Assembly: GCF_023476645.1 (NCBI RefSeq)
Contig: NZ_JAMCOJ010000001.1
Location: 806,001-870,000 of the forward strand
DNA: 64,000 bases
DNA from: Cellulophaga sp. 20_2_10
GTDB lineage: Bacteria > Bacteroidota > Bacteroidia > Flavobacteriales > Flavobacteriaceae
Direction: 5' to 3'
A program made the position numbers and the translations under genes. Shown in pieces: positions 43,882-58,108 of this stretch. The notes beneath the pieces were generated by a model. It was not told where the DNA came from, searched no databases, and saw only the letters and a program-made list of their open reading frames with translations. Position 1 is the first letter of the stretch, and the number at the start of each line of letters is the position of its first letter.

Positions 43882-44223
43882 TTACATGTATTTGGTATCG
43901 TTATCTTCCTCCATATATTTTTCAATTTGGCGTTGCTCCCAGTTTTTATAAAACCGAAACTTGTCTTTAAAAACATAAAGCCCATGACAGGTTAGTCCAA
44001 AGAGCCAAAGTAATGGCAATATCGTCATATTAACATCAATCCAATTCGTAACGTTTTTTCCTACAACATCAAATTCAACAGAGAAGCTATCTATCATTTT
44101 AAATCTAACTATTAAGACTATACTATTAACAACCAAAAACCAAGCTAAATGATTGTAAAAATCCATAATTTCTTTTACTTTTTTTTCCGCTCTTTCTAAT
44201 TTACCCAATGGTTCTTTTTTCAT
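43882..44223 (-). CDS. 2TM-domain protein
   Basis: A 113-aa protein of the 2TM family: a charged N-terminal helix (LERAEKKVKEIMDFYNHL), two membrane helices (WFLVVNSIVLIV and MTILPLLWLFGLTCHGLYVF) and the closing motif FYKNWEQRQIEKYMEED. It has an insertion between the helices compared with its siblings. It begins 1 base after the stop of the preceding 2TM gene, so translation is coupled. Function unknown; context suggests it is part of the membrane sensing unit of the LytTR system. Confidence 0.85.
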   Translation of the reverse strand: MKKEPLGKLERAEKKVKEIMDFYNHLAWFLVVNSIVLIVRFKMIDSFSVEFDVVGKNVTNWIDVNMTILPLLWLFGLTCHGLYVFKDKFRFYKNWEQRQIEKYMEEDNDTKYM

Positions 44224-44224
44224 T

Positions 44225-44566
44225 TTATTTCTTTTTTAAAAAATCATCTGACTCTCTTTTTTCCTTTTCCATGTACTTTTCTATCTGACGTTTCTCCCAG
44301 TTTTTACTAAAAAAAGGTAACGAACCATATACTTTAGAATAATGGCCAACGAGTCCTATTCCCCAAAAAAATGGTGTAAAGTAAGTTCCTATATTTAAAA
44401 AGCCATCCCATCCAGAGTTGTAAACAACATTGCCAACAATAAAGGTGTTTACTATTACATATACTGTTAGGTGTACGTAAAACCCTTTTAGCTGCTTTAT
44501 TTTTTCTTGAGCTCTCTCTAGCTTTTCGTTTCTATATTCTTGACTATAATCTTCCATTACCTCCAT
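44225..44566 (-). CDS. 2TM-domain protein
   Basis: A 113-aa 2TM protein: KLERAQEKIKQLKGFYVHLTVYVIVNTFI for the charged helix and first membrane helix, YFTPFFWGIGLVGHYSKVY for the second, and FFSKNWEKRQIEKYMEKEKR at the end. It overlaps the preceding 2TM gene by 10 bp. It keeps the GxGLVGH pattern seen in the kinase-fused copy (GLGLAAHGM). Confidence 0.87.
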   Translation of the reverse strand: MEVMEDYSQEYRNEKLERAQEKIKQLKGFYVHLTVYVIVNTFIVGNVVYNSGWDGFLNIGTYFTPFFWGIGLVGHYSKVYGSLPFFSKNWEKRQIEKYMEKEKRESDDFLKKK

Positions 44567-44862
44567 TTTTTATTAGTTTCCTCATCCTCTTTCATCAACT
44601 GGTTAATTTTCTTCTGCTCCCAGTCCTTACCCATAAACGGAAAAACATTAAATACTTTTACCGCTTTAAAAACAAGACTAATACCCACTCCTAATACAAC
44701 CCATAAAAACCAAGGGTTACTAAATTCGTTTACATAGTAGTTTATTGCAGCTACTACGGCTATTGTAAAAGATGAAGATATTACTTTGTTGTAAAACTCT
44801 TTTTCATCCTTTACACGCTCTTTAGCCCTTATATATTTGTCTTCGTTAGTGTTAATTTCCAT
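44557..44862 (-). CDS. 2TM-domain protein
   Basis: A 101-aa 2TM protein: KYIRAKERVKDEKEFYNKV, membrane helices around SSSFTIAVVAAINYYV and WFLWVVLGVGISLVFKAVKVF, and the final motif FMGKDWEQKKINQLMKEDEE. The conserved His of the second helix found in the other copies is missing here. It starts 32 bp after the kinase gene. Confidence 0.86.
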   Translation of the reverse strand: MEINTNEDKYIRAKERVKDEKEFYNKVISSSFTIAVVAAINYYVNEFSNPWFLWVVLGVGISLVFKAVKVFNVFPFMGKDWEQKKINQLMKEDEETNKKWR

Positions 44863-44894: not shown

Positions 44895-46217
44895 TTAAAA
44901 CTTGTCGTCTTCCATGTATTCTTTAATCTTACGATTCTCCCAGTTTTTGCCAAACAATGGATTGTAACCAAAAGCCTCCATACCGTGAGCAGCTAACCCT
45001 AAGCCCCAACCAAAGGCAGGAAATACTGACCAAGGAAAATCTGTAGTTCTATAGTTTAACCATATTAAAAATGGAATAACAAAGCAATAGGAAACTAGGT
45101 TGTATGTAAACCCTTTTATTTTCTCTACTCGTTCTTTTGCGCGTTGATATCGTTTTTCGTCTAAATGTACTTTTTGCGTTTCCATGGTTGATACTTTTTT
45201 GGTTAAGATTGGCAAGTGAACACTAAATTCTGCTGCGTCTTTGTTGATGATTACTGTTCTGTCTGTTAACATTTTGTAGCGTTGATGTATGTTTTTAAGT
45301 CCCACTCCACTACTCTTTTTAACAACTTTTTTCTCTTGTAAATTATTACTCACAATTAGCATATTATCTATTTCTTCAACCCTTAAATGCAATGGTTTAT
45401 TGGATGACACTATATTGTGTTTTACTGCATTCTCTAACAACAATTGTAAAGACAATGGTATTATTTTAGCATCTGGATTACTACTTTTTTCTGGCACTTC
45501 AAAAACAATACTGTCTTCAAACCTCATTTTTAGTAATCGTATATATGTTTTAGCAAACTGCAATTCTTCGTCTACTGTCACCAAATCTTTATTTTTCTGT
45601 TCTAAAACATATCTGTATACTTTAGATAATGATGTAGTAAACTTTTGCGCCTGGAACGGATCTTCTTCTATTAAACTTGTTAGCACATTTAAGCTGTTAA
45701 ATAAAAAATGTGGATCTAACTGGTTCTTTAAAGCATCGAACTTTGCAGAAGCCGTACCTGCTATAATTTTTTGCTCTTTTATTTTAGAATCTTGTATGTA
45801 TTTATAAAAATAATACGCGTGTAATGCTAATGAAACTACTATAGAAATTAATAGCGCTAACATATACGGCGCCAGCGTTTGGTTGTTTACAAAATGCTCT
45901 ATACTGTTACCAAAAAGAACAATTGCTATTATAAATTTTACTATTGCAAAAGCAATAACCGTAAGTAATATGGAGCCAAATGCACCAAACCACAATCTCT
46001 TTTTTGGTTGATGTTCCCAAGTATACACTTTAGTTATGTATTGAAAATAATAAGCATTTACCACACTTAAAACAAAAGAATATAAAAAGCTAATAGCCGC
46101 ATTACGTAACGCATTGGTTAAAGAAAAGCCGTTACTAATAGTACCCAATACATTTATAATGGTTAGTACAATTGTAATGTAAATACTTATTTTTAATATT
46201 TTTCTTATGTTGAACAT
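44895..46217 (-). CDS. LytS-type sensor histidine kinase fused to a 2TM domain
   Basis: A 440-aa membrane kinase. Four N-terminal membrane helices fill residues 10-140. The His_kinase domain follows, with the phospho-acceptor His170 in LKNQLDPHFLFNSLNVL, then the ATP-binding part with LQLLLENAVKHNIV (N box) and SSGVGLKNIHQRYK (G box). From Met345 (METQKVHLDEKRYQRAKERV) to the end lies a complete 2TM domain with its own membrane pair and terminal FGKNWENRKIKEYMEDD. The join has no linker, and Met345 (ATG at 45185) looks like the start of a former separate gene. First gene of the kinase-2TM-2TM-2TM-LytTR operon. Confidence 0.92.
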   Translation of the reverse strand: MFNIRKILKISIYITIVLTIINVLGTISNGFSLTNALRNAAISFLYSFVLSVVNAYYFQYITKVYTWEHQPKKRLWFGAFGSILLTVIAFAIVKFIIAIVLFGNSIEHFVNNQTLAPYMLALLISIVVSLALHAYYFYKYIQDSKIKEQKIIAGTASAKFDALKNQLDPHFLFNSLNVLTSLIEEDPFQAQKFTTSLSKVYRYVLEQKNKDLVTVDEELQFAKTYIRLLKMRFEDSIVFEVPEKSSNPDAKIIPLSLQLLLENAVKHNIVSSNKPLHLRVEEIDNMLIVSNNLQEKKVVKKSSGVGLKNIHQRYKMLTDRTVIINKDAAEFSVHLPILTKKVSTMETQKVHLDEKRYQRAKERVEKIKGFTYNLVSYCFVIPFLIWLNYRTTDFPWSVFPAFGWGLGLAAHGMEAFGYNPLFGKNWENRKIKEYMEDDKF

Positions 46218-46272: not shown

Positions 46273-46364
46273 CAAAGTTGAAGTATTACCTACACTACAA
46301 CAATAAAATAAAACCGAATTGTATGTTTTTGCAGATGAGCTGTAAAAAATTAGTACAATTCTGT
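46273..46364 (-). promoter_or_regulatory. Promoter of the kinase/2TM/LytTR operon with three 21-bp-spaced repeats
   Basis: Read on the minus strand: ACAGAATTGTA (46364-46354), 10-base spacer, ACAGCTCATCT (46343-46333), 10-base spacer, ACAATTCGGTT (46322-46312), then exactly 31 bases, then the -7-like CAACTTTG (46280-46273). The 21-bp period puts all three on the same DNA face. They resemble LytTR half-sites, which suggests autoregulation. Confidence 0.65.
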
Positions 46365-46418
46365 AATCTACACGACTAAAACTCAGAAAAATTAAAGGAA
46401 CAAAGTAAAACAAACCCT

Positions 46419-46426
46419 TATCTTTG
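46419..46426 (+). promoter_or_regulatory. -7 promoter element of rluF
   Basis: TATCTTTG, a perfect TANNTTTG match, lies 20 bases before the rluF start, divergent from the kinase promoter. Confidence 0.65.
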
Positions 46427-46446
46427 TCGTTAGAATAGCAATTATA

Positions 46447-47184
46447 ATGAAAGAAGTACAAGCAACTAGAATTAATAAATATTTAAGTGAAGTTGGTTAT
46501 TGCTCTCGCCGAGCGGCAGACAAACTAATAGACCAAGGACGTGTAACCATCAATGGCAAAGTGCCAGAAATGGGAACTAAAATAGTTCCTGATGATGAAG
46601 TACGCGTAGATGGAGAGCTAATTTCTGAACCTAAAGAAGATTTTGTATATCTAGCTTTTAACAAGCCTGTTGGCATTGTTTGCACCACAGATACACGTGT
46701 AGAAAAAGATAATATCATAGAATATATAAATTACCCTAAACGTATTTTTCCTATTGGTAGATTAGATAAGCCTAGTGAAGGTTTAATATTCTTAACTAAC
46801 GACGGCGATATTGTAAACAAGATTTTACGCGCTAGAAATCATCACGAAAAAGAGTACATAGTTAAGGTAGATAATATTATTACAGACGAATTTCTACACC
46901 AAATGAGTAATGGTATACCTATTTTAGACACTATTACCAGAAAATGTAAAGTAGAAAAATTAAGTAAATACGAGTTTAAAATTATACTTACACAAGGTCT
47001 TAATAGACAAATTAGAAGGATGACAGAGTATTTAGGATACAATGTTGTTACACTAAAACGTGTACGTATTATGAATATTTCTTTGGATATGCCAGTTGGC
47101 ACGTACCGTGAGTTTACTAAAGAGGAGCTTACAGAAATAAATAGACTTGTAGAAACATCTACAAAAACAATTAGAAATGATTAA
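46447..47184 (+). CDS. rluF: 23S rRNA pseudouridine(2604) synthase
   Basis: A 245-aa RsuA/RluF-type pseudouridine synthase. It starts with an S4 RNA-binding domain ([31 protein letters not shown]), followed by the catalytic domain with Asp107 in [21 protein letters not shown] and the late motif [28 protein letters not shown]. The [12 protein letters not shown] sequence and [15 protein letters not shown] favour RluF over RsuA or RluB. The EEP gene overlaps its end by 8 bp. Confidence 0.92.
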
Positions 47185-48019
47185 AAAGTATGCCTTTGTT
47201 ATAGTTGTTGCGTTTACATTATTTTCGACTTCTCTTACTAGTCAGAATATAAAGGCAATGACCTTTAATATTAAGTATGATAATACTGGTGACACTATAA
47301 ACAATTGGAACTTTCGCAAAGCTAAAATGGTAGCTTTAGTACAACATTACAATCCAACTTTTTTAGGTATACAAGAAGGCTTACACAACCAAGTTAGGTA
47401 TTTAGATACTAATTTACCAAACTACAGTTACGTTGGTGTTGGTAGAGATAATGGCAAGGAAAAAGGAGAATACAGTGCTATTTATTACAACCATAAAGAC
47501 TATAATGTAATAGCTACCAATACATTTTGGTTATCTACAACACCTAATAAAATCTCTATTGGGTGGGATGCATCTATGGAACGTATTTGTTCTTATGCCC
47601 TTTTTGAACATAAAATAACAAAACAGAACTACTGGGTATTTAATACTCATTTTGATCATATTGGTGTGGAGGCTCGTAAAAACTCTGCCAAACTAATTAC
47701 AGAAAAGATTAAGAGTTTAAATACAGAAAACAATCCTGTTATTTTAATGGGAGATTTTAATGTTACCCCAATTACAACAACTATTACAACCATAAAAAAT
47801 TACCTAGAAGATAGCTACTCTGCAACAGCAGAAAAACCATACGGACCAAAAGGCACTTTTAATGGCTTTACAGATATGGTTTTAAAAGACAGAATAGATT
47901 ACATATTTGTAAAAAATCTTGATGTTTTATCTGTGCTAATTATAGATGACAGACTAGACAACAACAAACACGTATCTGATCATTTACCTGTACTTACAAC
48001 ACTAACTATAAAAAAGTAA
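47177..48019 (+). CDS. Exported endonuclease/exonuclease/phosphatase family protein
   Basis: A 280-aa EEP-fold hydrolase with an N-terminal signal ([16 protein letters not shown]). Metal and catalytic motifs are complete: [17 protein letters not shown] (Glu), [10 protein letters not shown] (His), [11 protein letters not shown] (Asp/Asn), RIDYIFV and SDHLPVL (final His). Exported members of this subgroup usually act on phosphodiesters or phosphoinositide/sphingomyelin-like substrates; the actual one cannot be told. Its start lies inside the end of rluF, so the two are coupled. Confidence 0.88.
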
Positions 48020-48021
48020 TA

Positions 48022-48624
48022 ATGTATATTCCGCCAGCTTATCAAAATAAAAATGTAGAAGAAGTAAAAAATTTTATAACCAAAAACAGTTTTGGTATTT
48101 TGGTAAATCAAACTAACGGCAAACCTTGGGCTACGCACATACCTTTGGAACTAGCTCGTAAAGACGGAAAAGACATACTTGTAGGCCATATTGCAAAAGC
48201 AAACCCGCAGTGGCACAATTTTAAGGAAACTCCAGAAGTGCTTTGTATTTTTAACGGACCACACGGCTACGTCTCTTCTTCTTGGTACAAAGATGAAGAA
48301 GTACCAACCTGGAACTATATTGCTGTACACGTATACGGCAAAGTGTCTATTGTAAATAATGCTACTGCTATGGAAGGTTTACATACGTTAGTTAATAAAT
48401 ATGAGAAAGCTTCTGAGTGCCCTATACATTTAGATAATTTATCTAAAGGCACCTTAGCGCAAGTAAATGGTATTGTTGCTTTTGAGATTGAGATAACAGA
48501 CATACAAGCCACCTACAAACTGTCTCAAACAAGACAAGAAGACAAACCCAAAATAATTGAAGAGTTAGAAAAAAGAGATGTAGGCAGTAAGGAAATTGCT
48601 GAGCAAATGAAAAAGCAAAAATAG
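48022..48624 (+). CDS. PaiB-like FMN-binding protein
   Basis: A 200-aa member of the FMN-binding negative transcriptional regulator family (PaiB type): MYIPPAYQNKNVEEVKNFITKNSFGILV at the N-terminus, ATHIPLEL, LVGHIAKANPQWHNF, VLCIFNGPHGYVSSSWYKDEEVPTWNYIAVHVYGKV. Despite its name in Bacillus, the fold is that of a split-barrel flavin protein. It begins 2 bases after the EEP stop, so it belongs to the rluF operon. Confidence 0.9.
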   Translation: MYIPPAYQNKNVEEVKNFITKNSFGILVNQTNGKPWATHIPLELARKDGKDILVGHIAKANPQWHNFKETPEVLCIFNGPHGYVSSSWYKDEEVPTWNYIAVHVYGKVSIVNNATAMEGLHTLVNKYEKASECPIHLDNLSKGTLAQVNGIVAFEIEITDIQATYKLSQTRQEDKPKIIEELEKRDVGSKEIAEQMKKQK

Positions 48625-48672
48625 GGATCTACTAAAACAAAGTAGATACCTAATAATTTTGTATTTTTAAAT

Positions 48673-49569
48673 ATGCCAACAATCAACCTAAAATCTTTAC
48701 GCTCTAAAACGATACTTATTTTTGTAGGCATCACTTCCCTTTTTCAAATTACATCTTGTTCTAGCGATAGTAAAGAAGAAGAATTACCAACACCTACAAT
48801 ACCAAATGTTGTTTTTACAGCTATTGGCGATGTCCCTTATAATACTGAACAAAGAGATTCTATTATTAAGGTTATTGCTGCTCATAACACAAAAGCCAAG
48901 TCGGACTTTGCAATTCATTTAGGTGATATAAAACCTGGAGCCGGCGCTTGTGAAGAGGCCGTTTACAAAGATGTAAGCAACATTTTAAAACAGTTTAACA
49001 CACCAACCTTTGTAGTTCTTGGAGATAACGAGTTTAACGATTGCATAGATCCGGAACAAGGTTTAGCGTATTGGAACACTCATTTTTTAAAATTTAATAC
49101 AAACTGGACCTTTGCACCTAAAGTTAGCTACCAAGCAGAACGACCAGAAAATTTTAGTTGGGTACAGAACAAGGTTTTATTTATAGGCATAAACATAGTT
49201 GGCAGCACAGTACACAATACAACAGAATGGGAAACAAGATTAACAGATAATGCAAATTGGGTACAACAACACCTGCAGGCAGAAAAAAACAATGTAAATG
49301 CCGCAGTTGTATTTGGACACGCAAATATTACGGAAGGAGACGCTACCAAGTTTAATACATTTACTACCGTTTTTAGATCCAGTGCAGCTGCTTTTAAGAA
49401 ACCCGTACTTTATGTACAAGGAGACGGACATATTTGGTTTACAAATAAACCTTGGCCAGAAAAAAATATAACTCGCGTACAAATAGAAGGCGGACATAGA
49501 GCTGTAGAAGTTACAGTAGACCCAAACAAAAGTAATCCGTTTAGCTATAACCGTACTTTTTTAGATTAG
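48673..49569 (+). CDS. Metallophosphoesterase-like lipoprotein
   Basis: A 298-aa lipoprotein (ITSC lipobox, Cys29, after a hydrophobic stretch). Calcineurin-like phosphoesterase motifs are recognisable though divergent: FTAIGDVPY, AIHLGDIKPG (Asp), FVVLGDNEFNDC (GDNE/H), AVVFGHAN and YVQGDGHIW. A candidate -7 box TAATTTTG sits only 11 bases before the ATG. Substrate unknown. Monocistronic. Confidence 0.82.
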   Translation: MPTINLKSLRSKTILIFVGITSLFQITSCSSDSKEEELPTPTIPNVVFTAIGDVPYNTEQRDSIIKVIAAHNTKAKSDFAIHLGDIKPGAGACEEAVYKDVSNILKQFNTPTFVVLGDNEFNDCIDPEQGLAYWNTHFLKFNTNWTFAPKVSYQAERPENFSWVQNKVLFIGINIVGSTVHNTTEWETRLTDNANWVQQHLQAEKNNVNAAVVFGHANITEGDATKFNTFTTVFRSSAAAFKKPVLYVQGDGHIWFTNKPWPEKNITRVQIEGGHRAVEVTVDPNKSNPFSYNRTFLD

Positions 49570-49674
49570 AAATAGGTTTTATTTTCTACCCCACAACACC
49601 TGTTTTTTATTTCATTGCATTACACAATACTCTTTATACTTTCTACTTAAGACATTATACGTTAAAGTTTATTT

Positions 49675-49704
49675 TCTATTCTCTATTCTCTATTCTCTCT
49701 TCTC
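49675..49704 (+). repeat. Heptamer TCTATTC array
   Basis: Three exact copies of TCTATTC (49675-49695) are followed by a degenerate TCTC-rich unit. Its complement is (GAATAGA)n, close to the GAACAGA heptamers beside the four-helix-bundle gene at 12650. No ORF is associated with it here. Confidence 0.75.
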
Positions 49705-49740
49705 AATTTTCTATATTTCATCAACACAAATCCATATTCT

Positions 49741-49811
49741 ACAACTCAGTCTTAAAAATCTACAGTTGAGTCTATTGTATTTTAAAATACAGACCTAGCG
49801 CTTCATCTTTG
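49741..49811 (+). promoter_or_regulatory. LytTR-type double site and promoter of the DUF2141 gene
   Basis: ACAACTCAGTC (49741-49751) and ACAGTTGAGTC (49762-49772) are direct repeats (8 of 11 identical) with a 10-base spacer, giving a 21-bp period. Exactly 31 bases later comes the -7-like CATCTTTG (49804-49811), 27 bases before the ATG. ACAGTTGAG is close to the AgrA-type LytTR half-site. Confidence 0.68.
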
Positions 49812-49838
49812 TATCATAATCAACTTAAAAAAAATATT

Positions 49839-50261
49839 ATGAGAACTTTAGGATTACTTTTAGGATTATTTTTAATGAGTATTGTAGCAACAGCTCAAAA
49901 CGAAGAAACTACGTATAACATTACTATAACTATAGACAATGTAGTTAACGATAATGGTACTGTTTTAGCTGGCTTACACAGCGTAGAAACTTTTATGAAA
50001 GGTCAAGGTTTACAAAATCTACAAAGTACTATTAAAGACGGAAAAATAACGCTAGTGTTTAAAGATGTACAACCTGGAGAATATGCAATTTTAGCAATGC
50101 ATGACAAAAATAATAACAAACAAATGGACAGGGAAGCAAACGGAATGCCAACAGAGGATTATGGTATATCTGGATCTTCAACTCCTTATGGACCACCGAG
50201 CTTTAACGATGCTAAATTTATAGTTACAGACAAAGATTTAGAGTTTGCTATCCGCTTTTAA
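49839..50261 (+). CDS. Exported DUF2141 protein
   Basis: A 140-aa secreted protein with a signal peptide (LGLLLGLFLMSIVATAQ) and a single DUF2141 domain: YNITITIDNVVNDNGTVLAGLHS, DGKITLVFKDVQPGEYAILAMHDKNNNKQMDREANGMPTEDYGIS and a PPSFNDAKF turn. A longer frame begins at TTG 49809 but that overlaps the -7 element, so the ATG at 49839 is the start. The family is of unknown function in the envelope. Its promoter carries the LytTR-type double site. Confidence 0.9.
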   Translation: MRTLGLLLGLFLMSIVATAQNEETTYNITITIDNVVNDNGTVLAGLHSVETFMKGQGLQNLQSTIKDGKITLVFKDVQPGEYAILAMHDKNNNKQMDREANGMPTEDYGISGSSTPYGPPSFNDAKFIVTDKDLEFAIRF

Positions 50262-50280
50262 AAAACAACTAGTCAACATA

Positions 50281-50320
50281 AAAAAAGGGAGGTAAAGCAT
50301 TTGCTTTATCTCCCTTTTTT
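50281..50320. terminator. Terminator between the DUF2141 gene and dps
   Basis: A 19-bp stem with one G-U pair (AAAAAAGGGAGGTAAAGCA and its complement) around a 2-base loop; U-tracts in both directions fit the convergent genes. Confidence 0.9.
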
Positions 50321-50340
50321 GTCAACTTAATTACAGAAAT

Positions 50341-50814
50341 CTATTCCTCTAACCAAGCATTCATCATCCAAATAGTTTTTTCTTGTTCAGCTATAAAGTC
50401 ACTCATTAAAGAGTTTGTACCTTCATCATTAGCATCTCCAGAAACTTCTAGTAAATCGCGTTCTATAACTAATAATTCTTTTAAAGAATTTACAATTAAT
50501 TTTATAGCTTCTACATCTACAGATATGTTTTTACCTACTGGTAATTTAGATATTGCCATATAATCTTCAAAAGTATGCAAAGGTTTACCTCCTAATGTAA
50601 GTATACGTTCTGCAATCATATCTACTTTTAAATTTGCATCTGTGTATAACTCTTCAAACTTAATATGTAAATCAAAAAAACGTTTTCCTCTAATGTTCCA
50701 ATGAACACCTCTTAAATTTTGGTAATACACCTGAAAACTAGATAATAATATATTTAATTTACTGTTTAGTTCTGTAGCTTTTTCTACCTCTAATCCTATA
50801 CTGTTTAATTTCAT
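50341..50814 (-). CDS. dps: Dps family ferritin-like DNA-protection protein
   Basis: A 157-aa Dps protein that forms dodecamers storing iron and consuming peroxide. The intersubunit ferroxidase ligands are all present: His38 (VHWNI), His50 (DLHIKFEEL), Asp65 and Glu69 (KVDMIAERIL), with the same spacing as the classic H31/H43/D58/E62. It is divergent from oxyR with 104 bp between them, so peroxide control through OxyR is expected. Confidence 0.94.
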   Translation of the reverse strand: MKLNSIGLEVEKATELNSKLNILLSSFQVYYQNLRGVHWNIRGKRFFDLHIKFEELYTDANLKVDMIAERILTLGGKPLHTFEDYMAISKLPVGKNISVDVEAIKLIVNSLKELLVIERDLLEVSGDANDEGTNSLMSDFIAEQEKTIWMMNAWLEE

Positions 50815-50838
50815 AATATATATCTTTTTTTGTTACTA

Positions 50839-50846
50839 CAAAGTTA
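50839..50846 (-). promoter_or_regulatory. -7 promoter element of dps
   Basis: On the minus strand TAACTTTG matches TANNTTTG and lies 24 bases before the dps start codon. Confidence 0.6.
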
Positions 50847-50898
50847 GCTTCTATTTAGTATTTTTGAGGTGATTTAAATCATTTATTTTTATAATTTT

Positions 50899-50913
50899 AT
50901 AGTTTTAACCTAT
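50899..50913 (+). promoter_or_regulatory. OxyR-type operator at the oxyR start
   Basis: ATAG-TTTTAAC-CTAT fits the OxyR consensus ATAG-N7-CTAT, including the preferred inner T and A. It ends 5 bases before the oxyR ATG, a position suited to autorepression. Confidence 0.6.
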
Positions 50914-50918
50914 CAAGA

Positions 50919-51860
50919 ATGACAATAACTCAATTACAATATGTATTAGCGGTTGCCAAATACCAAAACTTTACACTAGCAGCGGAAAAAAGCTTTGTTA
51001 CGCAGCCAACTTTAAGTATGCAAGTACAAAAGTTAGAGGACGAGTTAGATATTCAGATTTTTGACAGAAGTAAAAAACCAATTTCTATTACGGAAGTCGG
51101 ACAAAAAATAGTAGAACAAGCTAAAAACATTGTAAACGAAGCTGATCGTATTAAAGATATTGTAGATCAAGAAAAAGGATTTATTGGTGGTGAGTATGTT
51201 TTAGGAATTATACCTACCATAATGCCTACGCTCTTACCTATGTTTTTAAAGGCTTTTATTTCTAAATTTCCAAAAGTGAATTTGGTCATTAAAGAACAAA
51301 GCACAGATACGCTTATTAGAAATTTACAAGACGGACAAATAGATGCTGCTATTGCCGCAACTCCTTTAGAGATTGAATTTATAAAAGAAAGACCTTTGTA
51401 TTACGAGCCATTTGTTGGTTATATACCACAACAACATAGGTTGGCCAATATTGAAAAATTAACTCCAGAAGATTTAGAGATTGATGATGTTTTGCTATTA
51501 CAAGACGGACATTGCTTTAGAGATGGTGTTATTAACTTATGTAAATCGCCTAAAAACTCTGTTGTAGATCATTTTAGATTGCAAAGTGGTAGTTTTGAAA
51601 CTTTGATAAATCTATCTAATGAAGGGTTAGGAATGACATTGTTGCCCTATTTAAACACATTGGATTTAGATGATAAGAAAAGACAAAATTTAAAACATTT
51701 TGAAACTCCATCTCCTGCAAGAGAAGTAAGTCTTATTTACCATAAAAAAGAGCTAAAAATACAAATAACAAATGCGCTACACGAAGTAATTACAAGTGTT
51801 GTACGTGGTGCAATTGCTTTTCAAGATGTAAAAATTATTAGTCCTATTACTAAAAAATAA
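50919..51860 (+). CDS. oxyR: Peroxide-sensing LysR regulator OxyR
   Basis: A 313-aa LysR-type regulator. The N-terminal HTH (MTITQLQYVLAVAKYQNFTLAAEKSFVTQPTLSMQVQKLEDEL) is followed by the sensory domain with the redox motif GHCFRDGVINLC. Its cysteines fall at 199 and 208, the same numbers as in E. coli OxyR, so the peroxide-sensing disulfide is intact. It is divergent from dps and has an OxyR-like operator just before its own ATG. Confidence 0.95.
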   Translation: MTITQLQYVLAVAKYQNFTLAAEKSFVTQPTLSMQVQKLEDELDIQIFDRSKKPISITEVGQKIVEQAKNIVNEADRIKDIVDQEKGFIGGEYVLGIIPTIMPTLLPMFLKAFISKFPKVNLVIKEQSTDTLIRNLQDGQIDAAIAATPLEIEFIKERPLYYEPFVGYIPQQHRLANIEKLTPEDLEIDDVLLLQDGHCFRDGVINLCKSPKNSVVDHFRLQSGSFETLINLSNEGLGMTLLPYLNTLDLDDKKRQNLKHFETPSPAREVSLIYHKKELKIQITNALHEVITSVVRGAIAFQDVKIISPITKK

Positions 51861-51861
51861 G

Positions 51862-52269
51862 TTATTTGCGAGCGTATCTATAAGAACACTCTTCTATACA
51901 ACCAATAAAACCTAAGATAATTTTATCGTCTTTAAAAGTAACATAGTAAGACGGGGAGTAATCCTCGTCATTACATTTGCCTTTAAAAGAAATTATATCC
52001 TCTTTAAAAGTATAAGACCCCGTAATTGGTGTATTATTACAGTTGTAACTATTGGTATGCGTAAAAGTATAATCTGCATTAAACTTAATTATATCTCCGT
52101 CTTTAACAGCTGTCCATTCTTTTACTACTGTTCCTGGACTAATTTTAGTAGCGTCTAGTTGCCAAGCACCTACAAGTTTTCCTTGTGTTAAAGGAATATC
52201 GTTATCATCATCCTTATTTAAACCACAAGCAACTACCCCTAAAAACAACAAACACACTACATATCTCAT
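51862..52269 (-). CDS. Lipocalin-like lipoprotein
   Basis: A 135-aa lipoprotein (lipobox VVAC, Cys15, acidic NKDDDND spacer). The domain opens with GKLVGAWQLDATKI and continues with FNADYTFTHTNSYNCNNTPITGSYTFKEDIISFKG, the usual small lipocalin-like fold of Bacteroidota, with four further Cys that could form disulfides. Ligand unknown. It is convergent with oxyR with a 1-base gap. Confidence 0.8.
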   Translation of the reverse strand: MRYVVCLLFLGVVACGLNKDDDNDIPLTQGKLVGAWQLDATKISPGTVVKEWTAVKDGDIIKFNADYTFTHTNSYNCNNTPITGSYTFKEDIISFKGKCNDEDYSPSYYVTFKDDKIILGFIGCIEECSYRYARK

Positions 52270-52314
52270 ACATTATTTTTAGATAAGATGTTAACAACAA
52301 CAAAAGGTTGCTTA

Positions 52315-52341
52315 TAAAAAAAGCCACCTTATCGGTGGCTT
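52315..52341 (-). terminator. Terminator after the 65-aa gene
   Basis: AAGCCACC pairs with GGTGGCTT around a 5-base loop; on the minus strand a run of U follows. It begins a few bases after the stop of the gene at 52346. Confidence 0.82.
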
Positions 52342-52345
52342 GTTT

Positions 52346-52543
52346 TTAGTTCTTTATATATATCATACACTGCCTTAATTCCGGCTTATCTGTAGTAAAA
52401 GAATTTAACCAGAGTTTTAATTCTTCAATCTCGTAAGGTAATAGCCTTGAAATTGATTTTTCTAGTTCTTTGCAAAACAACTTAGAATCAAAACTTACTT
52501 TTTGTAAAATAGTCTTAGTATAGTCAAACATTGCTCTTGCCAT
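52346..52543 (-). CDS. Small conserved cytoplasmic protein, 65 aa
   Basis: A 65-aa soluble protein starting MARAMFDYTKTILQKVSFDS and continuing with LFCKELEKSISRLLPYEIEELKLWL. The pattern (hydrophobic helix, Cys, then LLPYEIEELKxW) appears to be that of a small protein seen widely in Flavobacteriia, from memory and without a database check. It has its own terminator. No function known. Confidence 0.75.
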   Translation of the reverse strand: MARAMFDYTKTILQKVSFDSKLFCKELEKSISRLLPYEIEELKLWLNSFTTDKPELRQCMIYIKN

Positions 52544-52624
52544 TTTTCTAATTATTAATTTATTATTCCATAAATTTAACGATAAAAGGTATTACAATAG
52601 TCTATACAAAATGTTAAATATTCA

Positions 52625-53944
52625 ATGATTTTCAAAAAAACTTACGTAAAGTCCTACAAAGCCATATTTTACAATACTTACCGACTTACTCTAAAAATTT
52701 TTATTTTTTCTTTTTTGGCAAGTTGCGCAACTAGTAAATCTAAAATAACTAAAGTTGCGACTAATAAACTAGAAACTTCTTTGTTTAAGAATCATTTTGT
52801 GGGCTTAAAAGTATATGACCCAGCTAGCAAAAAAACTCTTTTTGAAAAAAACAGCACCAAATATTTTACACCTGCCAGCAACACTAAAATATTTACACTT
52901 TATACCACTTTAAAACTATTACCGGAATATAGTCCGTTATTAAAATATGCTGTAAAAGGCAATACAACCTATATCCAAGGAACGGGAAACCCAACAATAG
53001 TACATCCGTATTTTAAAGACGATACTGCTATTGAGTTTTTAAAAAAGCAAAAAAATATAATGTTATATCTAAACAACTTTACGTCTGACAAGTTTGGTGG
53101 TGGCTGGGCTTGGGAAGATTTTGACACCTATTTTTCTCCCGAACGCGGTGGTTTACCTCTTTATGGTAATGTAGTAACTGCGTATAAAAAAGGAGAAATT
53201 GAAACATACCCTAGTTATTTTAAAGACAGTGTTTCTAGAAGGCCACATAGTTTTAAAAGAGACTTAGTTAAAAACATCTTTTATATAAGTCCTAATTTAA
53301 GAGACACACTAGAAGTTCCTTTTAAAACAAGTTCTAAACTAACCAAGGAGCTATTAGAAGCAGAAACAAGTAATAAAGTTACCGTAACAAAGAGCTTTCC
53401 TTCTATAAAAAAAACAATCCTTTATGGTATAGCAACAGATTCAATTGCAAAAAGAATGATGTATACAAGTGATAACTTTTTAGCAGAACAGTTGCTTATT
53501 ATGGCTTCTAGCACTTTGTCTGATACGCTTAACACGAACAAAACAATTAATTATATTTTAAAAACTGATTTAGCCGATTTAGAAGAACAACCACGTTGGG
53601 TAGATGGTTCTGGACTCTCTAGGTACAACTTATTTACACCAGCCTCTTTTGTAGACGTACTAGACAAAATGTATACAGAAGTCCCAAGAGATAGGTTGTT
53701 ATCATTATTTCCGGTAGGCGGCATTTCTGGAACCTTAAAAAACTGGTATAAAGGCAACCCAACACCATACATATATGCAAAATCTGGTAGTTTGGGTAAC
53801 AACTATAGTTTAAGCGGCTACTTAATTACGAAGTCTGGAAAAACATTAATTTTTAGTTTTATGAACAATCATTTTAAGACAAAAACTTCTGATGTAAAAA
53901 AAGAAATGGAAGCCGTTTTAGAACTAATTAGAGATAACTATTAA
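52625..53944 (+). CDS. dacB: D-alanyl-D-alanine carboxypeptidase/endopeptidase, PBP4 type (S13)
   Basis: A 439-aa peptidoglycan hydrolase, probably a lipoprotein (FLASC, Cys34, after a long basic N-terminus). The three active-site motifs are present: SxxK as SNTK (Ser85, Lys88), SxN as SDN in MMYTSDNFLAEQLL, and KTG as KSG in YAKSGSLGNNYSLSGYL. It trims or cleaves stem-peptide cross-links in the periplasm. It is followed by a small membrane-protein gene. Confidence 0.9.
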   Translation: MIFKKTYVKSYKAIFYNTYRLTLKIFIFSFLASCATSKSKITKVATNKLETSLFKNHFVGLKVYDPASKKTLFEKNSTKYFTPASNTKIFTLYTTLKLLPEYSPLLKYAVKGNTTYIQGTGNPTIVHPYFKDDTAIEFLKKQKNIMLYLNNFTSDKFGGGWAWEDFDTYFSPERGGLPLYGNVVTAYKKGEIETYPSYFKDSVSRRPHSFKRDLVKNIFYISPNLRDTLEVPFKTSSKLTKELLEAETSNKVTVTKSFPSIKKTILYGIATDSIAKRMMYTSDNFLAEQLLIMASSTLSDTLNTNKTINYILKTDLADLEEQPRWVDGSGLSRYNLFTPASFVDVLDKMYTEVPRDRLLSLFPVGGISGTLKNWYKGNPTPYIYAKSGSLGNNYSLSGYLITKSGKTLIFSFMNNHFKTKTSDVKKEMEAVLELIRDNY

Positions 53945-53977
53945 TTATATATTGATAAAACTAAAGACTTATTAACG

Positions 53978-54364
53978 ATGATGAAACTAGTGGTAATCGC
54001 AATTGTATTTATACTTACTGTACTATACTTGATAAAAACTAACGACCCCAATAAATTAAAAATAGATAAGAGTCTCTTCCTATTTACAAGTAAATCAATA
54101 CTAAAAGGTTTTATCCTTTATACTATTGCGGGCTGCTTATTAGCTTCTATAATACTATGTACTATGTTTTACCAAAACGGAGAACCTCATTCTCACAATA
54201 TGCCCGAATTGTTGTACATATGGCTTGGTGCAGCAGGTGCAATTACAGGTTGTATTTTAGGTTTCTTTTTATCTTTAGTAAGCAAAACTAATATAAACAA
54301 AAAACTAACAATTGGATCTTTCCTTTTTGCAATTGGATGCTTTATTTGGTTAAACCTTTTATGA
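53978..54364 (+). CDS. Small membrane protein
   Basis: A 128-aa protein with four hydrophobic segments: LVVIAIVFILTVLYLI, ILKGFILYTIAGCLLASIILC, YIWLGAAGAITGCILGFFLSL and a final FLFAIGCFIWLNLL. A polar loop with HSHN lies between segments two and three. I do not recognise a family. It starts 34 bp after dacB and may be co-transcribed. Confidence 0.7.
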   Translation: MMKLVVIAIVFILTVLYLIKTNDPNKLKIDKSLFLFTSKSILKGFILYTIAGCLLASIILCTMFYQNGEPHSHNMPELLYIWLGAAGAITGCILGFFLSLVSKTNINKKLTIGSFLFAIGCFIWLNLL

Positions 54365-54523
54365 TTTTTAGCCCTAACTATTCCTATTCAATTTTACACT
54401 ACCAAATATTTAAAAACCTATTAAACTTACCTGCAAGTCAACTGCTACCCTACTATTAATTACTTTTTGCACAGAAAAAAACACGTAAATACGCTCTACG
54501 TAATTCCTTTTACCTAGTACTTC

Positions 54524-54979
54524 TTACTTTCTTAAACGTATTGTCCAATCAAAATTAAAAGTAGAAACCACTACTCCGTCTTTATTAACACCAATAGATT
54601 TCATTGTAAAAATTTGTCCTTCTCCAGTTGCAACTGTTTTAGCAATTGCATCCTCAATTAAATGTCCGTCTTCACACGTAAACGTAATTCTCCCCGTAGC
54701 TTTTTTAGTAAATGTAGCGTTGTTACTCGCTACCAACATAGAAATTTTTTTTCCACTTTTCTCAATTTGGTCAATAACCATAATTCCTGTTGCGTATTCC
54801 GCAGCCATACCTTGCACTGCCCAAAACATAGAGTTAAATGGGTTTTGATTAAACCATCTGTGCTTAACTGTAACTACTGCTTTTTTCTCATCTATGTGCT
54901 GTAAACGTACGCCACACCACCAAGCAGATGGTAGTTTAAAAAAATTAAATACGTTGTACTTTAATGTGCTCTTTGCCAT
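54524..54979 (-). CDS. DUF4442 hotdog-fold protein
   Basis: A protein of about 151 aa, MAKSTLKYNVFNFFKLPSAWWCGVRLQHIDEKKAVVTVKHRW followed by NPFNSMFWAVQGMAAEYATGIMVI and ending in FTMKSIGVNKDGVVVSTFNFDWTIR. This is the DUF4442 pattern, a PaaI-like thioesterase fold in which the active-site residue is uncertain. The open frame extends 30 residues upstream, but that part is unlike the family, so ATG at 54979 is used. It is divergent from padR. Confidence 0.85.
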   Translation of the reverse strand: MAKSTLKYNVFNFFKLPSAWWCGVRLQHIDEKKAVVTVKHRWFNQNPFNSMFWAVQGMAAEYATGIMVIDQIEKSGKKISMLVASNNATFTKKATGRITFTCEDGHLIEDAIAKTVATGEGQIFTMKSIGVNKDGVVVSTFNFDWTIRLRK

Positions 54980-55064
54980 TCTATAATTTATAATTTTTAT
55001 AAAAGTATTGAAAATAGTTGAATTTATAAATGTTAAATTAAAGTTAATTTTTAGTACTATGTTT

Positions 55065-55095
55065 TGCATAATACCTTTTTAAAGACATATATTTG
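55065..55095 (+). promoter_or_regulatory. Promoter of the padR-pspC operon
   Basis: TTG at 55065-55067 and a perfect -7 element TATATTTG at 55088-55095 are separated by 20 bases, the Flavobacterium two-box promoter. It leaves a 5' leader of more than 100 bases before padR. Confidence 0.6.
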
Positions 55096-55219
55096 TATAA
55101 GAAACTAACAAGTTAGAATTATAGAACTTAATCAATTCTATAAAAAAATAATTCAGCGGAGTTTGTTCATCAAATCAATTAACCCTTTTCTGGTGGGTTA
55201 TTAAAAGAATATCTAAACT

Positions 55220-55564
55220 ATGAAGATAGAAAACACAAAGGCACAAATGCGCAAAGGTGTTTTAGAGTATTGCATCCTCTCTATACTTAAGGGAGAAGAC
55301 AAATATACTTCTGAAATTCTTGCTACATTAAAAGATGCCAAAATGCTAGTTGTAGAAGGCACTATTTATCCATTACTAACAAGATTAAAAAATGCCGGGC
55401 TACTAACCTACCGTTGGGAAGAGTCCACATCTGGCCCACCAAGAAAATACTACGCACTTACAAAAACAGGAGAAGATTTTTTAACCGAATTAAATTCTAC
55501 CTGGGACGATCTAAGAAATGCAGTAAACCTAGTTACCAACTCAAAAAAAACGAACAATGAATAA
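55220..55564 (+). CDS. PadR-family transcriptional regulator
   Basis: A 114-aa winged-helix repressor: RKGVLEYCILSILKGEDKYTSEILATLKDAKMLVVEGTIYPLLTRLKNAGLLTYRWEESTSGPPRKYYALTKTG is the complete PadR domain. Short PadR proteins of this type sit in front of PspC/GIN genes in many Bacteroidota and probably repress them until membrane stress. Its end overlaps pspC by 8 bp. Confidence 0.92.
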   Translation: MKIENTKAQMRKGVLEYCILSILKGEDKYTSEILATLKDAKMLVVEGTIYPLLTRLKNAGLLTYRWEESTSGPPRKYYALTKTGEDFLTELNSTWDDLRNAVNLVTNSKKTNNE

Positions 55565-57290
55565 GACGATAAACATAAACCTGGCTAACTTATTCTTTCA
55601 TATAGACGAAGATGCATTTCGCAAATTAGACAACTATTTAAAAGCAATAAAGCAATCTTTAAACAATGGTACGGGTGCGGACGAAATTATTTCTGATATT
55701 GAGGCTAGAATTGCAGAACTTTTTCAGGAAAAAATTAAAAACAACCAACAAGTAATTACCAAAACAGATGTAGAAGATGTTATTGCTGTTATGGGGCAAC
55801 CTGAAGATTACCGTGTAGACGAAGAGATTTTTGAGGACGAAGAAGCACCTGCATCAAAATCTAAAACAAAAAAGCTTTACAGAGATACAGACAACAAATA
55901 TATTGGTGGTATTTCTGCAGGTATGGCGCATTATTTAGGCATTAACCCTTGGTGGGTTCGTTTATTATGGATTGTACTTACACTAGCTACTTTTAGCGGA
56001 TTTATAGTAATTTATATTCTATTACTTTTTTTAATACCAGAAGCTAAAACAACCTCGCAAAAACTAGATATGCGAGGAGAGTCTATAAACATTAGCAACA
56101 TAGAGCGTACTGTAAAAGAGAGTTTTAATACTGTTACAGATAAGGTTAAAAACGCAGATTACAATAAGGCTAGCGGAAAACTAAAAACAGGTATTCAAAC
56201 TTTTTTTGATGCAATAGGAACCATCTTCAATTTCATTTTTAAAAGTATTGGTAAAATTATAGGTGTATTTTTTATTTTAATTGGTGGCGCTGTAGTAATA
56301 GGTACCTTTATAGGCTTATTTACTGCTGGTTTCACAGATGCATTTGTTATAAACAACACACCACTTTACAGCATCGTTAATAGTACAAGCGCACCAATTT
56401 GGTTAATATCATTACTAACATTTTTTGCCATTGCAATACCATTTTTCTTTCTACTTTATTTAGGATTAAAAATTGTTGTATCTAACTTAAAATCTATTGG
56501 TACAATTGCTAAATTAACTCTACTTGGTGTTTGGTTGGCTGCTATTATAGGCTTAACAATTGTTGGTATTAAAGAAGCGACTGCTAATATGTACAAAGGA
56601 AGTGTAAACAAAACAGAGGAACTTAATTTTACACAGCCCTTAGATACTTTATACATAGCTACTAAAACAAGTAAAAATTATGACAGACCAGAAAATTTTA
56701 GAATTAATGGAATGACATTTACTATAGATGAAAACGGAAAAAAACTGTTACTAGATAACGATTTTATCTTTGATATTGTTAGGTCTAATGACAACGTAGC
56801 ACGAATTAAAATACAAAAAGTATCTCAAGGTAGTTCTTTTGATGAGGCTAGAGAAAGAGCTAAAACTATAGAATACAACTACCAAGTATTAGACAATAAA
56901 GTAGTTTTAGATAACTTTTTAATGCTAGACCCTAAAAGTAAAATTAGAGACCAAGAGGTTAATATTACCCTTTACATTCCTAAAGGTGTAATTATTAAGT
57001 TTGATTATGATGCTGATACTCACAACATTGGTTGGCATACATCATACAAAGAAGAAATTTACAGATCTGAGGTAAAAGATTACACTTGGGTTATGAATAA
57101 GCAAGGAGTTTTAGATTGTTTAGATTGTCCAAGTGAAGACATTATTGAAGAAGAAGCAGATGAATTTGATAAAGAGACAAAACTATCTGTGGACGAGGAA
57201 GGCGTTAATATTAAAATTAATGGAAATGAGAGCTCTTTAAATATTAAAATTGACGAAAATGGAGCACGTATTGAAGCTTCAAAAAATTAA
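55557..57290 (+). CDS. PspC-domain membrane stress protein
   Basis: A 577-aa protein. The N-terminal 100 residues are cytoplasmic and acidic (NINLANLFFHIDEDAFRKLDNYL, then IAVMGQPEDYRVDEE). The PspC domain follows (KKLYRDTDNKYIGGISAGMAHYLGINPWWVRLLWIVLTLATFSG, about 105-165). Four to five membrane helices run to about residue 345, and a beta-rich tail (360-577) ends in EGVNIKINGNESSLNIKIDENG. It belongs to the phage-shock/LiaF-like envelope stress group. Co-transcribed with padR; the GIN gene follows after about 100 bp with its own control site. Confidence 0.88.
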   Translation: MNKTININLANLFFHIDEDAFRKLDNYLKAIKQSLNNGTGADEIISDIEARIAELFQEKIKNNQQVITKTDVEDVIAVMGQPEDYRVDEEIFEDEEAPASKSKTKKLYRDTDNKYIGGISAGMAHYLGINPWWVRLLWIVLTLATFSGFIVIYILLLFLIPEAKTTSQKLDMRGESINISNIERTVKESFNTVTDKVKNADYNKASGKLKTGIQTFFDAIGTIFNFIFKSIGKIIGVFFILIGGAVVIGTFIGLFTAGFTDAFVINNTPLYSIVNSTSAPIWLISLLTFFAIAIPFFFLLYLGLKIVVSNLKSIGTIAKLTLLGVWLAAIIGLTIVGIKEATANMYKGSVNKTEELNFTQPLDTLYIATKTSKNYDRPENFRINGMTFTIDENGKKLLLDNDFIFDIVRSNDNVARIKIQKVSQGSSFDEARERAKTIEYNYQVLDNKVVLDNFLMLDPKSKIRDQEVNITLYIPKGVIIKFDYDADTHNIGWHTSYKEEIYRSEVKDYTWVMNKQGVLDCLDCPSEDIIEEEADEFDKETKLSVDEEGVNIKINGNESSLNIKIDENGARIEASKN

Positions 57291-57295
57291 AACAT

Positions 57296-57366
57296 ACAAT
57301 TCAGTATCAAAAAATAACAATTGAGTCTATCTTTTTAGAAATAAGACTATCATTTATAGACTTTTA
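57296..57366 (+). promoter_or_regulatory. LytTR-type double site and promoter of the GIN-domain gene
   Basis: ACAATTCAGTA (57296-57306) and ACAATTGAGTC (57317-57327), 21-bp period, then exactly 31 bases to a -7-like GACTTTTA (57359-57366), 25 bases before the ATG. Same layout as at 49741 and 46312. Confidence 0.66.
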
Positions 57367-57391: not shown

Positions 57392-58108
57392 ATGACAACA
57401 CTATCTAAAATCACAATCGCATTAGTAGTAAGTTTACTGTTCAGCTCTTGCTCTTTTAACTTTGGAGACGGAAAAAAAGGAAATGGCGAGTTAACAGAGC
57501 AGAATCGTGAAATTACAAACAGTTTTGATCGCATTTCAGCATCAGAAGGCATTACTGTTTATGTAACTCAAGCAAAAGAATTTAGTATACGAGTAGAAGC
57601 AGATGAAAATGTTATAGACCTAATTGGTACAGACGTTAAGGATGGTAAACTTAAAATACACGCTATTGAAAACATTGGTAGAGCCACTAAAAATGTACAT
57701 GTTACATTACCAGTTGTTACTGCTTTGTATAGCTCTAGTGGAGCCGACTTAAATTCTGAATCACAGATAGAAGCAGATGAAATTGACTTAAACGCAAGTA
57801 GTGGTGCAGATATAGATGTTGCCCTTGTAGCAAATTCTATAAACGCAGACTCTAGCAGTGGGGCAGACATTAAACTAAGTGGTAAAACAAATAACTTAAC
57901 TGCAAATGCTAGTAGTGGGGCTGATATTGATGCTCGCGATTTAAAAACTAAAACTTGTGATGCAGATGCAAGTAGCGGAGCAGATATTAGCGTAGATGTG
58001 TCAGATTCTTTAATTGCAGATGCCAGCAGTGGAGCAGATATATTGTACAGCGGTAATGCATCGGTTAAAAAGAATAAATCTTCTTCTGGAAGCGTAAAAA
58101 AGAGATAA
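57392..58108 (+). CDS. Head GIN-domain (DUF2807) lipoprotein
   Basis: A 238-aa lipoprotein (lipobox FSSC, Cys20). After a FDRISASEGITVYVTQ start typical of the GIN adhesin-like head domain, the chain has six copies of SSGAD[IL], spaced 18-21 residues, and a final SSGSV. This regular turn pattern fits a right-handed beta-solenoid. The C-terminus is basic (VKKNKSSSGSVKKR). It lies behind pspC but has a separate promoter with a LytTR-type double site. Confidence 0.88.
   Translation: MTTLSKITIALVVSLLFSSCSFNFGDGKKGNGELTEQNREITNSFDRISASEGITVYVTQAKEFSIRVEADENVIDLIGTDVKDGKLKIHAIENIGRATKNVHVTLPVVTALYSSSGADLNSESQIEADEIDLNASSGADIDVALVANSINADSSSGADIKLSGKTNNLTANASSGADIDARDLKTKTCDADASSGADISVDVSDSLIADASSGADILYSGNASVKKNKSSSGSVKKR

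Follow-up and report, generated by a model that had tools for sequence, protein, structure and literature searches.

Which regulator reads the paired direct repeats that stand, in identical register, before three promoters of Cellulophaga sp. 20_2_10? The promoters lie in a stretch of 64,000 nucleotides (the window; contig NZ_JAMCOJ010000001.1, positions 806,001 to 870,000) and belong to an operon encoding a histidine kinase, 2TM-domain membrane proteins and a LytTR response regulator, to a DUF2141 gene and to a GIN gene. Our analysis indicates that an autoactivated LytTR two-component regulon very probably explains these sites. The circuit probably switches on its own operon plus a set of cell-envelope genes, a reading that builds on the sites, their geometry, their neighbour genes, their conservation and their co-occurrence with the kinase/LytTR pair, all of which are plain observations on the DNA.

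Upstream of the kinase operon (minus strand) the distal half-site ACAGCTCATCT (46343-46333) and the proximal half-site ACAATTCGGTT (46322-46312), both read directly, form a pair at 46312..46343 (profile E=2.7e-9), and the -7 element CAACTTTG (46280-46273) follows 31 bp after the proximal half-site. On the plus strand, the DUF2141 gene is preceded by ACAACTCAGTC (49741-49751) and ACAGTTGAGTC (49762-49772; profile E=7.6e-15) with its -7 element CATCTTTG at 49804-49811, and the GIN gene by ACAATTCAGTA (57296-57306) and ACAATTGAGTC (57317-57327; profile E=2.8e-10) with its -7 element GACTTTTA at 57359-57366, each box again 31 bp after the proximal half-site. The original prediction had placed the repeats at these positions with a period of 21 bp and a distance of 31 bp to the -7 box, and direct reading bore out all of these spacings. 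It had also counted a third, most distal copy, ACAGAATTGTA (46364-46354, minus strand, read directly), with the kinase promoter; this copy was rejected as part of the site, since a repeat at that place occurs in only 3 of 121 scored sites. The exact double repeat (no mismatches) is found twice in the 4.17 Mb genome, both times within the window, and the reversed control pattern not once. Searching the genome with the repeat pair but no -7 box was dropped, as it gave 58 matches at up to two mismatches compared with 77 for the reversed control; in the window the pair alone gave 14 matches at up to three mismatches, with 11.0 expected. Since the pair alone at up to two mismatches is not enriched, the signal needs the full geometry. 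Five one-mismatch matches elsewhere in the genome (C1:868972, C3:41448, C12:78495, C12:490346 and C34:320671) were likewise discarded, being located inside genes or lacking an in-register box and being absent from the significant profile matches.

The shape of the site was defined in a sample of 100 Flavobacteriaceae genomes, one per genus. Here the repeats plus -7 box at gap 31, with at most one mismatch, gave 47 matches in 30 genomes, and the reversed pattern gave one. A first position profile was built from 46 of the 47 sites; the excluded one (G029:C1:837475) lies inside a gene. Two positions that had been left free in the pattern are constrained: position 7 of the half-site is C or G in 44/46 distal and 46/46 proximal copies, and position 8 is A or G in 46/46, distal and proximal alike. 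ACARTTSRGT describes the half-site best. In the -33 region, a further column that the pattern had left free holds T at 45 of the 46 profile sites. In the 121 sites scored later the distal half-site most commonly ends in ATC or GTC (58 sites) and the proximal one in GGT or AGT (105 sites); ACAGCTCATC in the window therefore ends as distal half-sites commonly do, rather than being just a poor copy. The gap to the -7 box is fixed. Among 84 repeat pairs from relatives, chosen by their repeats alone, NANNTTTG is present at gap 31 in 76 and at any other gap from 10 to 64 in none, and the looser NANNTTTR occurs 82 times at gap 31 and 9 times in all at the other gaps. When the first profile was applied to 35 held-out kinase loci (379 kb), taken from genomes without a match to the originally proposed pattern plus gap, it found 49 sites at score 18 with the expected spacings (period 21, gap 31), as against zero for the reversed control and no more than 13 when period or gap was shifted. 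Helical-turn variants at gaps 20, 33 and 42, with up to 13 sites at score 18, are not claimed, because these peaks vanished with repeat-only selection (NANNTTTG 0 at each gap; NANNTTTR 2, 0 and 1, respectively). LytTR regulons are expected to have a pair of direct repeats, spaced by about 21 bp, ahead of the core promoter, and both the peak at period 21 and the fixed gap of 31 agree with this.

All genes of the kinase operon lie on the minus strand. Its first gene here (44895..46217; Pfam His_kinase + 2TM) encodes a LytS-type sensor histidine kinase with a C-terminal 2TM domain. Three 2TM-domain membrane proteins follow (43882-44223, 44225-44566 and 44557-44862, together 43882..44862; Pfam 2TM), and then the LytTR response regulator (43034..43789; Pfam Response_reg 50.2 bits and LytTR 74.5 bits, above cut-off), the putative binder of the repeats. 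The phospho-acceptor stretch of the kinase, DPHFLFNSLN, is invariant in 18 aligned orthologues. With a receiver plus LytTR regulator and a LytS-type kinase whose phospho-acceptor stretch is intact, the operon has the components that define a LytTR two-component system. A 2TM gene comes after the kinase in 62/62 kinase genes examined and a LytTR regulator in 58/62; within 4.5 kb upstream of the 62 there is a TPR gene in 41, a TonB-dependent receptor (TBDR) gene in 21 and a DUF2141 gene in 17, with some loci cut by contig ends.

Sites upstream of the kinase recur in most of the relatives examined. A site scoring at least 17 is located there in all 40 loci (L131-L170) that were not already in the sample because of a motif match, five of which come from genomes with a match to the original pattern elsewhere. 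In 80 kinase loci of named organisms, among them Maribacter, Flagellimonas, Arenibacter, Aquimarina, Winogradskyella and Salegentibacter, 132 sites were found, and the reversed control gave zero across the 1.03 Mb searched; at least three of these loci are from assemblies that are also present in the other genome sample. Three of the 80 have too little upstream DNA (less than 1.2 kb), and of the remaining 77 a site lies no more than 2.5 kb upstream of the kinase in 73. Conservation of the repeats upstream of orthologous genes (40/40 and 73/77) and an abundance of the full motif far above the controls (47 vs 1, 49 vs 0 and 132 vs 0), on both of which the original prediction depended, are thus observed.

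Site and regulator also travel together between genomes. The pair was counted as present where an orthologue of either partner was found, which applies to 76 of the 100 family genomes. Of the first 80, 60 have a kinase orthologue (>280 bits), and of the other 20, 16 have a regulator orthologue (>330 bits). Where the first 80 lack the kinase (20 genomes), no regulator orthologue is present either (best match 246 bits). Profile matches at E<=1e-5 are present in 73/76 genomes with the pair vs 2/24 without it (Fisher 8e-17, kinship ignored), so that the motif goes with the kinase/LytTR pair. The original pattern alone gave 25/60 genomes with the kinase vs 0/20 without it in the first 80 (P=2e-4).

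Which genes do the sites precede? In the Cellulophaga genome a sequence-only covariance profile returned five sites at E<=2.5e-8, the next match being at 0.016, and these precede the DUF2141 gene, the GIN gene, the kinase operon, a TBDR gene and a TPR-like gene. The last two, the TPR-like gene directly following the TBDR gene (L061), lie about 290 kb from the window; as TPR and TBDR genes are often found near the kinase elsewhere, the two distant sites belong to frequent neighbours of the kinase. The window and 78 loci together gave 127 scored sites, and in 122 of them the nearest downstream gene on the same strand is TPR (30), TBDR (29), DUF2141 (27), kinase (17), 2TM (17) or GIN (2). The TBDR has a carboxypeptidase-like domain and a plug, with a barrel match in the Cellulophaga copy. 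The TPR-like protein of this genome has no Pfam match, its relatives having weak TPR matches, and the TPR-like, DUF2141 and GIN proteins start with signal- or lipoprotein-like leaders by our reading of their sequences. The set of an own operon plus DUF2141 and GIN, as first proposed, hence stands in its members, with GIN in a lesser role described below, and was drawn too small, for TBDR and TPR genes also carry sites.

Some arrangements around these targets were recorded in passing. A proline-rich protein that looks to us like a TonB energy transducer is encoded after the site-bearing TBDR gene in L243, L244 and L248; such a gene also lies in L230 at 7499-8227, and in G006, where no TBDR gene was found, the site precedes it. 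Diverging TBDR and DUF2141 genes share one intergenic region with two back-to-back sites, one per gene, in L246 (4461-4619) and L249 (4146-4304). In genome G045 two sites (L240 4297-4367 and 6078-6148) precede small exported-looking proteins outside the usual target set.

The DUF2141 gene of the window (49839..50261, plus strand; Pfam DUF2141, ATG start read from the sequence) encodes a protein with a signal-peptide-like leader. Independently of the motif, loci were collected around OxyR (50 loci, the 30 best matches and 20 selected ones, with 75 of 80 genomes matching). Of these loci 34 are kinase-bearing, and DUF2141 adjoins OxyR in 15 of the 34. A site is present in 14 of the 15 loci with DUF2141 beside OxyR, the fifteenth (L517) reaching a score of 13.9, below the threshold of 17, and it is absent from all 35 OxyR loci without DUF2141, among them all 16 kinase-less loci. 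The neighbourhood itself recurs: an orphan DUF2141 gene adjoins an OxyR-type LysR regulator in the window (49839-51860) and, in several genera, in L232-L235, L237, L241, L242, L244 and L245, and a Dps gene is also present in some OxyR-DUF2141 loci. The OxyR/Dps surroundings of DUF2141 hint at a link to oxidative stress.

The GIN/DUF2807 (Toastrack) protein (57392..58108, plus strand; Pfam DUF2807) has a lipoprotein-like leader. Around PspC, 50 loci were collected in the same way (the top 30 and 20 selected ones, with 71 of 80 genomes matching), and a correctly placed and stranded site is found in 19/36 kinase-bearing PspC-GIN loci; the GIN label comes from a permissive search that could also match the Toastrack part of PspC. 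In L445 the site is on the opposite strand, beyond the distant end of the PspC gene from GIN's point of view, and is not counted among the 19. Twelve PspC loci are kinase-less, six of these have a GIN-like gene, and one (G006) has a site. With 14/15 for DUF2141 and 19/36 for GIN, DUF2141 is a firm member and GIN a facultative one. Directly upstream of GIN in the window (55220-57290, plus strand) are a PadR regulator gene and then a gene for a PspC-LiaI/LiaF-TM-Toastrack membrane protein, whose HAAS match is below cut-off. The profile scan of the Cellulophaga genome gave no significant site before PadR-PspC, and in the window GIN alone of this run carries a site. Two layers of GIN control are possible in this arrangement. 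Near the starts of PadR-PspC genes a look-alike element, GYARTTCRCT / TTAATTCRTT, appears on the opposite strand, mostly below threshold (L445 1390, L439 3179, L444 3185, L435 3274, L430 1388 and L070 10944); it is perhaps a PadR operator.

Several observations weigh against a regulon of this kind and have to be set beside the evidence. Four of the 77 named loci (L256, L260, L301 and L313) have no site at score 17 upstream of the kinase. In L256 and L260 weaker sites (score 13) are present there; L301 and L313 are Robiginitalea records with 55-56% G+C, and the half-sites of L301 have drifted (ACGGTTCG). Three genomes have the regulator yet miss E<=1e-5: G011 has weaker sites before its kinase, DUF2141 and GIN genes, G080 has two matches at E ~0.001 near its regulator gene, and the third is G094. 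Conversely, two pair-less genomes keep strong sites, three in G006 and one in G051, the latter an 88% complete genome whose site is at a contig end. Genomes lacking the pair are often small or incomplete, and the co-occurrence counts ignore kinship. The later profile R1 was trained partly on the same kinase loci and is therefore not independent of the 40/40 result; the five own-genome sites and the 73/76 vs 2/24 contrast depend on R1, and the 47 vs 1 count, the held-out loci, the named loci, the gap test and the OxyR and PspC anchors rest on the original pattern or the first profile. Among the targets, 5/127 sites precede other genes, 9 of the remaining 122 lie more than 160 bp from a predicted gene, inside it or overlapping it, 17/36 kinase-bearing PspC-GIN loci lack a site in the right place, and GIN shows no significant kinase contrast (19/36 vs 1/6 kinase-less, P=0.19). 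As a separate observation, a segment of the LytTR domain, YTNSRL, reads YSNSRL in both Robiginitalea loci, and regulator and site may possibly co-vary in this genus.

The most serious competitor accepts the sites and gives them to a different LytTR regulator, the kinase-2TM-LytTR operon being merely one of its targets. The Cellulophaga genome has 18 LytTR matches, and the choice of binder among them rests on co-occurrence; G006 keeps its three sites without an orthologous kinase or regulator while having nine LytTR matches of its own. Two of these G006 sites are imperfect, however: one precedes a TonB-transducer-like gene, with a decayed -7 box and no TBDR found behind it, and in a second the proximal half-site is degenerate. 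Furthermore, site presence tracks this particular pair across the genomes and the pair's own operon carries an upstream site in every one of the 40 fetched loci, and we consider a different regulator unlikely.

Since the direction of control is not readable from sequence, the regulator could also repress these promoters, its own included, and a repressor beside an activator (PlnD, PlnC) has been described. PlnD and PlnC are both of LytTR type. The layout speaks for activation. The repeats stop just short of the -33 element and leave the -7 box uncovered, and the gap is fixed at 31. More specifically, some 8 bp separate the end of the half-sites from the T-rich -33 element, which resembles the layout of activated LytTR promoters in operons of LytTR Regulatory Systems (LRS) described in PMC6193735. 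The -7 box itself is off-consensus. The flavobacterial consensus is TAnnTTTG (PMC9723704); at the regulon sites the first base of the box, left free in the pattern, is T in 2/46 and C or G in 41/46, whereas of 102 control NANNTTTG boxes, which precede other genes in these loci, 61 begin with T and 15 with C or G (P=2e-18). An off-consensus -7 box suits activator dependence, and auto-repression appears still less probable than a different regulator. That the sites arose by chance or belong to a dispersed repeat element with no regulatory function, for which one might cite the missing enrichment of the bare pair in this genome, hardly deserves consideration given the empty reversed control over 1.03 Mb, the fixed gap, just five sites in the genome, and 122/127 sites before six kinds of gene.

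An autoactivated LytTR circuit would then work as follows. The LytS-type kinase with its 2TM tail (44895-46217) would phosphorylate the LytTR response regulator (43034-43789), and two regulator subunits would bind the two 10-bp half-sites, which are 21 bp apart, on one face of the helix. Seated just upstream of the -33 element, the bound subunits could recruit or stabilise RNA polymerase at the off-consensus -7 box. Activation of the regulator's own operon would produce positive feedback, and an exported module of TBDR, TPR-like protein, one or two DUF2141 proteins and 2TM proteins would be activated along with it, as would, in roughly half of the loci inspected, the GIN protein encoded next to PspC. 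Binding by this very LytTR regulator, its dependence on phosphorylation and activation as the outcome are what we infer from the arrangement of the genes and sites. The signal is most likely an envelope or outer-membrane-transport condition.

How far does the system reach? In 196 genomes of the order Flavobacteriales, 35 have a match at E<=1e-6 (a count only, not a rate), and eight of these 35 belong to two families other than Flavobacteriaceae. In the six of these eight that were inspected (G102, G179, G195, G208, G265 and G284) the sites precede kinase, TPR, TBDR or DUF2141-like genes with the same geometry, and nearby regulators, where seen, reach 221-245 bits to the window regulator. The -7 box starts with C or G in G265 and G102, and it is TATCTTTG or TAATTTTG in the four genomes inspected of genus g149; the off-consensus box is therefore typical of the window's family, but some members of the order lack it. 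A more far-reaching idea, which we put forward as rather doubtful, is that TBDR, TPR-like and DUF2141 proteins are part of the sensor too. They might then form a core trans-envelope circuit of Flavobacteriales, in which an outer-membrane uptake or envelope event acts through the 2TM kinase on a LytTR regulator, and this regulator in turn amplifies all members of the set. Such a circuit would be a LytTR-based alternative to receptor/anti-sigma/ECF and hybrid two-component routes, served by an activator-dependent promoter class with an off-consensus -7 box in the window's family. LytTR regulators can be numerous in this group, as the 18 matches illustrate, and the pair occurs in 76 of the 100 sampled genera. 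The promoter architecture is unusually exact. The regulon yields a short list of co-regulated envelope genes (DUF2141, 2TM, GIN and the TBDR-TPR pair), and its promoters are ready-made reporters for finding the signal.

Systems of the LytSR, BtsSR, YpdAB and AgrCA type consist of a His_kinase sensor and a LytTR response regulator that uses tandem direct repeats. The window system shares with them the combination of a His_kinase (PF06580) sensor and a LytTR response regulator (the best NCBIfam matches being BtsR and LytR, both below cut-off); it differs by the C-terminal 2TM domain of its kinase and the 2TM genes in the operon, by a multi-locus envelope regulon and by a Bacteroidetes -33/-7 promoter. 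The geometry and protein families are accordingly of a known kind, and the regulon itself appears, as the original prediction suspected, to be undescribed: neither a description of this regulon or motif nor any described LytTR regulon from Flavobacteriaceae was found in the open-licence PMC literature among the matches listed. The run of PadR, PspC (HAAS, LiaI-LiaF-TM, Toastrack) and GIN (DUF2807 = Toastrack) resembles the PSP/Toastrack and HAAS-PadR envelope-stress modules of PMC11237479, and the available part of that paper holds no link of such modules to a flavobacterial LytTR kinase operon. A close likeness in promoter layout is to the LRS (PMC6193735). In these systems, among them HdrRM and BrsRM of Streptococcus mutans, the repeats come in direct pairs, most of them 9 bp long and separated by 12 bp (period 21), and frequently lie 10 bp before the -35 element, with positive autoregulation; LRS-like operons of Bacteroides have 11 bp repeats that are 11 bp apart and 11 bp upstream of the promoter, before TATCTTTG. 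Paired direct repeats with period 21 just upstream of the promoter are thus common to both. In contrast, the partner of an LRS regulator is an inhibitory membrane protein, the feature by which LRS membership is recognized, and its place in the window system is taken by a histidine kinase acting with a receiver-domain regulator; the repeat here, ACARTTSRGT, and the target set of TBDR, TPR, DUF2141 and 2TM genes likewise set the window system apart from the LRS.

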